Source of the DNA: Brachybacterium sp. EE-P12
GTDB taxonomy: Bacteria > Actinomycetota > Actinomycetes > Actinomycetales > Dermabacteraceae
Assembly: GCF_003711805.1 (NCBI RefSeq)
Contig: NZ_QXCP01000010.1
Coordinates: 63,061-127,060 of the forward strand
Length of the DNA stretch: 64,000 nt
Direction: 5' to 3'
Each line of letters opens with the position of its first letter. The first letter of the stretch is position 1. The position numbers and the translations under genes are program-made. The notes beneath the pieces are model-generated. The model did not search any database, had not been told where the DNA came from, and saw nothing but the letters and a program-made list of their open reading frames with translations. Positions 23,718 to 26,296 of the stretch are shown here, piece by piece.

Positions 23718-24076
23718 GCGTACAGCCCGATGGTGACGAGCGCGGCGGCGATCACCACGCCGATGACCAGCAGCGCCCCGGAGGCGAGGCCCGGCAGCGG
23801 CTCGGCGCGGCGCAGGGAGCGCTCGGTGGCGCGCCATCCGATCCAGGCCTGCACCACGGACAGGGTGCCGAGCGCCAGGAACACCGCTGCGGCGGCGATC
23901 CGCCACCCGGTCGCCTCCGGCAGCGACAGCGCCTCGAGCGCGAAGGCCGCCGCGTACATCGCCAGCGCCGTACGCAGCCAGGCGAGGAAGGTGCGCTCGT
24001 TGGCGAGGCTGAAGCGGGGATCGGGTTCCTCGCCCTCGCCGTAGACGCTCCTGGGGAAGCGGCGGTCGACGCTCAT
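23714..24076 (-). CDS. DUF202 (YidH-like) small membrane protein
   Basis: 120 residues. LANERTFLAWLRTALAMYAA near residues 28-47 is the family signature, followed by helices at about 58-80 and 98-118; this matches the usual three-helix YidH architecture. ATG overlaps the stop of the upstream gene (ATGA), and the next DUF202 gene overlaps in turn. Known families of this type are uncharacterised inner-membrane proteins. Linked translation with a formylglycine-generating enzyme is notable but gives no clear role. Confidence 0.85.
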   Translation of the reverse strand: MSVDRRFPRSVYGEGEEPDPRFSLANERTFLAWLRTALAMYAAAFALEALSLPEATGWRIAAAAVFLALGTLSVVQAWIGWRATERSLRRAEPLPGLASGALLVIGVVIAAALVTIGLYA

Positions 24077-25086
24077 GCACGCCCGTCCCGTCGGCCGACG
24101 GTGCGGAATCCGCCGTTGCCCATCGAGGAGTCGGGGGTGTTCTGCGAGCGGGCCGAGTTGCGGTAGCGGTTGCAGTAGGAGAGGTGGCAGAGGTAGCTGC
24201 CGCCGCGCATGACGCGGGTCTGACCGTCCTGGGGGCCGACGGGGTCCGTGACCGTGGTGCGCTTGTCGGCCGTGGCGCCGCGGCGGTAGGTGGCGGGGTG
24301 GAACCAGTCCTCGCACCACTCCCACACGTTGCCGACCATCTGCCACAGCCCGTAGCCGTTCGGCGTGAAGCTGCGCACGGGGGCGGTGGTGAGGTAGCCG
24401 TCCTCGCAGGTGTTCCGGCGGGGGAACTCGCCCTGGAAGATGTTGGCGCGCCAGCCGCCCTCGTCGACCTCCTGATCGCCCCAGGGATACTTCGCGCCGT
24501 CGATCCCGCCGCGGGCGGCGTACTCCCACTCGGCCTCGGTGGGCAGGCGCCGGCCGGCCCAGTCGCAGTAGGCGATCGCGTCGTTCCAGGAGATGTGGAC
24601 GACGGGGCGGTCGCCGAGTCCGTCGAGATCGGAGAGCCGCCCGCCCGGGTGGCGCCAGTCGGCACCCTTGACGCCCGCCCACCACGGAGTGCCGTCGGCC
24701 GGGCCCATGATGTCCTCCTCCGGCGCGGCGAGCGCGAGGTGGAAGACGGCGGAGAATCCGAAGCTCTCCGCTTCGGTGACGTAGCCGGTCGCCTCGACGA
24801 AGCGGGCGAAGGCGTCGTTGGTGACGGTCGTGGCATCGATGTCGAAGGTGCTGATGGCGACCTCGTGCCGGGGCGTCTCCCCGTCGGCGCGGTTCTTGTC
24901 GCCGGAGGAGTCGCCCATGGTGAAGGTGCCGGCGGGAACCCGGATCTGCTCGATGGCGTGGCGGCCGGTGCCGGCCGACGCGGTCGCGCGCGCTCCCGGG
25001 ACGGAGAGATCAGGGAGCAGCTGCTCCCGGCTCGGGGTGCCGCAGCCGCAGCCGCATCCGCTGGTCGCAGGTGTCTCGGTCGTCAT
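24073..25086 (-). CDS. Formylglycine-generating enzyme (sulfatase activator)
   Basis: 337 residues. Oxidises the Cys of a sulfatase CxPxR motif to formylglycine. Seen: FGE-sulfatase domain from VPAGTFTMGD (about residue 50), RLPTEAEWEYAARGG, WPG-type block GNVWEWCEDWF, and the active-site RGGSYLCHLSYCNRYR with Cys300 and Cys305, the same Cys-x4-Cys spacing as human FGE Cys336/Cys341. This marks it as a true FGE rather than a mere C-type-lectin-like relative. The N-terminus has an unusual SGCGCGCG cysteine cluster that could bind copper or another metal. The adjacent sulfatase is a pseudogene, so this enzyme may now serve a distant substrate. Followed by coupled DUF202 genes. Confidence 0.92.
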   Translation of the reverse strand: MTTETPATSGCGCGCGTPSREQLLPDLSVPGARATASAGTGRHAIEQIRVPAGTFTMGDSSGDKNRADGETPRHEVAISTFDIDATTVTNDAFARFVEATGYVTEAESFGFSAVFHLALAAPEEDIMGPADGTPWWAGVKGADWRHPGGRLSDLDGLGDRPVVHISWNDAIAYCDWAGRRLPTEAEWEYAARGGIDGAKYPWGDQEVDEGGWRANIFQGEFPRRNTCEDGYLTTAPVRSFTPNGYGLWQMVGNVWEWCEDWFHPATYRRGATADKRTTVTDPVGPQDGQTRVMRGGSYLCHLSYCNRYRNSARSQNTPDSSMGNGGFRTVGRRDGRA

Positions 25087-25171
25087 CCTTCAGTCCCTTC
25101 ATCATCAGAGCGGCGCCGCCGACGGGCCCGGTCCAGCATGTCACTGCGTCGACGGGCCGCGCGCCCCGCGC

Positions 25172-25611
25172 TCACACCCCAGCGAGCACCTCGCCCTGGA
25201 CAGGCAGCCCGAGGCGTGCGAACTGGCTGGCCGGTGCGTCGTTCACTCGCATCGCCTCGGCGAGGAGCCGTGCCATCCTCAGCTCGGCCTCGTCGTCGAC
25301 CAGCGGCGAGAGCTGCTGCGGGTCCTGCTCGAGGTCGAACAGGGGGTGCCGTGCCGCCAGGGGTTCATCCGCCCGCCCACGGCCTCGACCCGGATCGTGC
25401 GCAGACCCTTGGTGAAGGTGAACGGCCCGGCCGGGGTCCAGTCCGTGAGCTCGACGGGGCTGAAGAGCGAGCGCATGTGGGCGGGCATGCACGGCATGGA
25501 CCCGGCGTAGAAGATGTCGAAGGTGACCGCCCCCTGGGCTAGCCGGGCGAAGCTCGGGGCCTCGACGATCGTCTCGCGGTACTGCTCGAGAGGGTCAGGC
25601 GCCGACTGTCG
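25172..25611 (-). pseudogene. Sulfatase remnant: internal deletion plus frameshift
   Basis: Minus-strand frame read from about 25611: PSFARLAQGAVTFDIFYAGS runs into the sulfatase active site MPCMPA (Cys codon 25489-25491). It then jumps directly to what looks like a sulfatase C-terminus, HMRSLFSPVELTDWTPAGPF, with the CxPxR Arg replaced by His. About 400 internal residues are missing. The frame breaks again in a run of five G (25342-25346, plus strand): MNPWRHGTP is followed by LFDLEQDP only if one base is added. The rest runs to the stop at 25172. The first ~30 residues are also gone. It lies directly upstream of the intact FGE gene, the expected pair. Family assignment is from recall of sulfatase ends. 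Confidence 0.75.
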
Positions 25612-25727
25612 TCAGGCGTCGCCCGTCGGCTGTGCGAAGCCGACGGCGGGGCAACGACCGGGCGACCGAACAGCCATGACGAGGCGGCGGGGTCGCCTTC
25701 ACAGCGCACCCGATATGCGGGCCGACT

Positions 25728-26078
25728 TCAGAGGTCGAGCACGAATCGCAGGGCGCGGTCGATCTCGCTCAGCTCAGCCGGACCGACCATTCCGCGGCGC
25801 GTGACGAGTCGTGTGGTCGAGATGGTGCGCAGCTGATCGCACCGGGCATGGGAGATGTGCCCGAGGCCTGTGGTGCCCGGCTCGATCTCGACGTGGCTGC
25901 GCAACCCATAGGCGGCGGAGGTGATCGGCACGACCGTGATCAAGCCGCCCGGACCGTTGTTGAGGATGTCGACGGAGACCACGACGGCCGGCCGACGGAA
26001 CGCCGGTTCGTGACCGACCGGCTGCCCGAGATCGACATCATGGACGTCTCCCCGCCAGATCACGTCAGCGAATCCCAT
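25728..26078 (-). CDS. MazF/PemK-family endoribonuclease toxin
   Basis: 116 residues. The core IWRGDVHDVDLGQPVG followed by AFRRPAVVVSVDILN (about residues 7-37) matches the MazF beta-barrel start with its conserved Arg. VVPITSAA and GLGHISHARCDQLRTISTTRL complete the RNase active-site region. Cleaves mRNA when free of antitoxin. Start MGFADVIW overlaps the antitoxin gene by 19 bp, as expected for translational coupling; an upstream in-frame ATG at 26108 lies deeper in the antitoxin. Second gene of the module. Confidence 0.88.
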   Translation of the reverse strand: MGFADVIWRGDVHDVDLGQPVGHEPAFRRPAVVVSVDILNNGPGGLITVVPITSAAYGLRSHVEIEPGTTGLGHISHARCDQLRTISTTRLVTRRGMVGPAELSEIDRALRFVLDL

Positions 26079-26296
26079 TCCTGCCGCTCGGCCACGTACT
26101 GCTCCCACAGTTCGGGATCCTCACGCAGCCGTGCATAATCGGCAGTCAGGCCCTGTAGGAACTCCTGCTTCTCCAGTGCGTCGATCGCGACATGCACGAC
26201 ATCGATGACGGATGTGCCCCGCGACTTGGCGAGGACCTGGAGACGTTCGGAATCGTGTCGTCGAACTCTGACCGTGGTGGTCTCGGAGGTAGCCAT
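26060..26296 (-). CDS. Antitoxin of the mazEF-like module
   Basis: 78 residues. The N-terminal part TTVRVRRHDSERLQVLAKSRG (split; about residues 7-27) fits a ribbon-helix-helix DNA-binding fold, and the C-terminus DPELWEQYVAERQEWDSLT would wrap the toxin. A near-perfect 19-bp palindrome overlaps its promoter, so autorepression by the antitoxin or complex is likely. No ribosome binding site; a TACAGT box 6 bp before ATG points to a leaderless mRNA. Confidence 0.8.
   Translation of the reverse strand: MATSETTTVRVRRHDSERLQVLAKSRGTSVIDVVHVAIDALEKQEFLQGLTADYARLREDPELWEQYVAERQEWDSLT

Follow-up and report, generated by a model that had tools for sequence, protein, structure and literature searches.

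A probable sulfatase pseudogene beside an intact FGE gene in Brachybacterium sp. EE-P12

Here, we report on a 64,000-nucleotide stretch of Brachybacterium sp. EE-P12 (the window; contig NZ_QXCP01000010.1, positions 63,061 to 127,060), in which the remains of a C-type sulfatase gene (25172-25611, minus strand; 566 to 599 residues when full) lie beside an intact gene for the sulfatase-activating formylglycine-generating enzyme (FGE; 24073-25086, minus strand). The source genome is a draft of 3.96 Mb (21 contigs, 99.99% complete). Two sulfatase pieces abut at CMPA/HMRS; the minus-strand translation runs from LEQYRETIVEAPSFARLAQGAVTFDIFYAGSMPCMPA directly into HMRSLFSPVELTDW and continues in the next frame as LFDLEQDPQQLSPLVDDEAELRMARLLAEAMRVNDAPASQFARLGLPVQGEVLAGV to a stop, about 139 codons being left. 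By tblastn, these correspond to residues 16-52, 404-452, and 454-505 of the 599-residue sulfatase of genome G022, which serves as the numbering reference. The N-terminal piece (25480-25590, minus strand; 84% by tblastn) has no start codon in frame ahead of residue 16. It is followed by a first C-terminal piece (25345-25491, minus strand; beginning HMRS; 78%), a G5 run (25342-25346, minus strand), a second C-terminal piece (25187-25342, minus strand; 83%), and the last codons with the stop (LAGV; 25172-25186, minus strand). The last codons are fused to residue ~506 at a joint whose position is uncertain in the alignments, and the G022 gene ends in AALAG. Between remnant and FGE gene lies an intergenic stretch (25087-25171, minus strand) common to genome G016, where the blastn match (L069) extends through 25194.

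On its other side, the remnant is bordered by a 40-bp 3' tail of a lost PadR gene (25611-25650, minus strand; blastn, 82.5% to L028 9721-9760, the PadR end). Where relatives carry PadR and major facilitator (MFS) genes, the window has a PemK/MazF-type toxin gene (25728-26078, minus strand; PF02452, E value 7.9e-23) and, upstream of it, a small gene (26069-26296, minus strand; 88% identical in G016) that had no Pfam match and is a likely antitoxin gene by position.

The FGE gene is the only PF03781 match in the whole genome (E value 4.6e-79), and the match covers positions 4 to 254 of the 255-position profile, that is, the full domain. In alignment with the solved FGE 2q17, SYLCHLSYCNRYR falls opposite SYLCHDSYCNRYR, and both active-site cysteines are kept (SYLCHLSYC versus SYLCHDSYC), as the preliminary description of this DNA had stated. 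The closest relatives are those of Brachybacterium paraconglomeratum (91%) and "Candidatus B. merdigallinarum" (90%). Pairwise dN/dS was 0.12 to 0.25, and the value of about 0.15 to 0.19 on the window branch indicates purifying selection.

The joined remnant peptide was searched against 38 genomes of the genus. The single full-length joined match was the window itself; seven other genomes matched each half on its own, at a spacing of about 1 kb within one open frame (amino acid identity, 57 to 62% for the N half and 63 to 76% for the C half). The intact relatives encode 566 to 599 residues with the N terminus MKAI(I/M)LMFDSLNRHML and the motif CMPAR; the G022 orthologue, at the syntenic place, matches PF00884 (E value, 1.2e-33). 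Against its DNA, the remnant halves are 89.1% (N) and 81.9% (C) identical by blastn; in G022 some 1.06 kb separates the two matches, which overlap by 9 nt at the window's joint. Homology, lesions, and synteny are thus direct observations, and they bear out the earlier claim that a single sulfatase gene was collapsed by deletion rather than two unrelated proteins being joined. Neither remnant piece matches the PF00884 profile, no single open frame encodes the whole PF00884 domain, and the remnant reads CMPAH for the CMPAR of relatives; of CxPxR, the type I sulfatase motif in which formylglycine is made from the cysteine, cysteine and proline are kept and arginine is gone, as previously noted. 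The remnant cannot be an enzyme.

The damage is wider than the single collapse with loss of about 400 residues first proposed. At least three deletions are present, and the PadR and transporter genes upstream have been lost as well. From the 5' end, the start codon, residues 1 to 15, and part of the intergenic stretch are missing; the central deletion removed 984 to 1,065 nt depending on the relative compared (328 to 355 residues, fewer than the 400 first estimated) and is in frame against every relative; and the C terminus has lost about 90 residues ahead of the stop. The second lesion of the preliminary description is real: the G5 run is one base short of all seven relatives, and the frame is broken there. 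That description had overlooked the lost start with 15 codons, the missing ~90-residue C terminus, the toxin pair, and what is left of PadR. A C-terminal deletion common to the window and G016 was considered and rejected; what the two demonstrably have in common is limited to the intergenic sequence following the stop.

The central joint (25480-25489, minus strand; sense strand ATGCCCGCCC) was located by the overlap of the two blastn matches. Intact genes read TGC ATGCCCGCN at the N site and CTG ATGCCCACN at the C site, and the window reads ATGCCCGCCCACATG. In six of the seven relatives, ATGCCC stands at both deletion ends (in G028, the two read ATGCCG), and random joint ends 900 to 1,200 nt apart in these genes had 6 nt or more in common in 0.3% of trials; together these argue for a microhomology joint. 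The ancestor of the window may have had a ten-base repeat, ATGCCCRCCC, with no more than one mismatch. The proposed short direct repeat at both ends thus stands at the DNA level, but not as the shared Met-Pro-Ala suggested earlier: all seven relatives have MPT, and none has MPA, in the C-terminal copy.

Could the short form still function, encoding a small protein of sulfatase origin that acts, for example, as a decoy for FGE? The in-frame central deletion, the retained CMPA, and a stop at the usual distance ahead of FGE (85 bp, with 69 to 75 bp in G028 and G025) would fit. Such a protein is, however, extremely improbable given the missing start codon ahead of residue 16, the mid-gene frameshift, the lost arginine, and substitutions at five positions where the seven relatives are invariant (N13S, N26I, R42L, W74R, and Q79R, numbered within the compared segment); moreover, no conserved short form was found in the 38 genomes of the genus, a form that would have spoken against the decay proposed in the preliminary description.

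The same sites bear on the age of the loss, which had been called fresh. The sister, G022, has no change at residues invariant in the seven relatives. Branch dN/dS was 0.30 to 0.36 for the remnant and 0.19 to 0.23 for the sister branch (134 codons, with wide limits), and remnant dN exceeded sister-branch dN in 0.87 to 0.88 of bootstraps, a modest excess that is not significant alone; outgroup-polarised codon-position counts were too small in number for dating. The likeliest course is that the sulfatase was constrained over most of the branch and that constraint was lost in its later part. "Fresh" holds only loosely in that sense: because of the three deletions and the frameshift, the loss is not brand new, and the five altered invariant residues likewise sit poorly with the word.

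Full sulfatase genes with PadR and an MFS transporter gene upstream occur in seven Brachybacterium genomes, with FGE directly beside the sulfatase in G022, G028, and G025. The slot is complete in G022 (MFS1, FGE, sulfatase, PadR, MFS2, TetR, sugar isomerase), and MFS2 is absent from that of the window, where the toxin pair is found instead. The pair also occurs in G016 and not in this slot of G004 (B. paraconglomeratum KCTC 9916), G010, or G022, which means more than one gain or loss. FGE and TetR, but no sulfatase, occupy this slot in G004, G010, G016, and the partial G029. A four-gene tree (G029 left out) groups the window with G004 and places intact G022 apart from G016 and G010. Repeated sulfatase loss with FGE kept is the simplest reading, although support for joining G016 with G010 is weak (46% and 0.95 in the two trees). 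That the collapse is an assembly artefact and an intact gene exists is barely credible: the genome is a draft of 21 contigs, but the stretch is internal to a 238-kb contig, carries several separate lesions and diverged residues, and the gene is wholly absent from four neighbours of the same slot.

The rest of the genome was searched for CxPxR sulfatases, as the preliminary description had advised. Seven other PF00884 loci were found, and every one has CxPxR; five are whole, and two are truncated at contig ends. Two of the seven are on the window's contig, ~135 kb away. The two cut loci, L006 and L007 at the ends of contigs C6 and C11, are closely similar (CTNSICTPSRASILTGTYSH), suggesting a duplicated region that the assembly could not join. 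The earlier phrase "an activator with no local substrate" is correct to the letter but misleading, because with seven other CxPxR sulfatase loci and a sole FGE the enzyme is no orphan; its predicted clients are only not next door.

We therefore favor, at about 93%, a sulfatase pseudogene within a PadR-sulfatase-FGE locus that is being eroded, with FGE kept for the other CxPxR sulfatases. The process is ordinary gene decay. The order of events is our inference: the lineage would have ceased to need one C-type sulfatase; three or more deletions (the 5' end with the start codon, the central 1 kb between ATGCCC copies, and the C-terminal part), the central one perhaps by slippage or end-joining at the short repeat, and a one-base frameshift would have cut the gene to ~139 codons; and deletion, or replacement by the toxin pair, would have removed the regulator and transporter genes upstream. 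FGE has probably been retained as the one activator that this genome has for its remaining CxPxR sulfatases.

This retention argument does not cover every relative. In the complete genome of G004, no PF00884 match was found at an E value of 0.001, and its intact FGE gene (L148/L077, at L077:9001-10005) has a branch dN/dS of 0.14 to 0.17, indicating purifying selection. Weak PF00884 pieces of G004 were examined and set aside; they read YPSVTYPNHT at the nucleophile place, with no CxPxR there, in a frame that we take to encode a phosphodiesterase-like protein. The FGE of G004 is a candidate true orphan, and it may reflect either a recent total loss of sulfatases or other FGE clients. A constrained, intact FGE with no detectable sulfatase hints at a role outside PF00884; that FGE is kept in this Brachybacterium group for such a role, the window being an earlier stage of the same path, is conceivable but doubtful. 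That the FGE of this locus is a substrate-less relic on its way out appears very unlikely: no sulfatase adjoins it, and G004 offers a parallel, but this genome has seven CxPxR sulfatase loci and one FGE, whose dN/dS is low (~0.15 to 0.19) and whose cysteines are both kept. Separately, a second FGE-like gene in G022 (L156, G022:C1:952971-953890) gives two separate matches, interrupted by a stop or frame change, and looks broken.

Literature searches on FGE alongside a sulfatase pseudogene, on FGE in the absence of sulfatases, and on Brachybacterium sulfatases gave titles and abstracts that held nothing on point. A single pseudogene is by itself of little weight. The series from full cassette (G022) through wreck (window) to FGE alone (G004, G010, and G016) neatly illustrates, in nature, how a modifying enzyme can outlast a neighboring substrate gene, and G004 makes FGE clients outside the known sulfatase family a testable question. 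It also cautions that the orphan status of an enzyme should not be called from its neighborhood alone.

Compared with type I (CxPxR) sulfatases of PF00884, the remnant is alike over G022 residues 16-52 and 404-506 and differs in having lost its start, the CxPxR arginine, an unbroken frame, and most of the catalytic domain. The window FGE has the same full domain as aerobic FGEs of PF03781 (2q17, 392 bits; human SUMF1 structures) and both cysteines, with nothing notable save a Cys/Gly-rich N-terminal stretch. Bacterial pseudogenes formed by deletion between short direct repeats have a joint on a 6- to 10-nt imperfect repeat, secondary deletions, and a frameshift in common with this remnant; only the graded series in neighbors, with the activator kept, is somewhat unusual.
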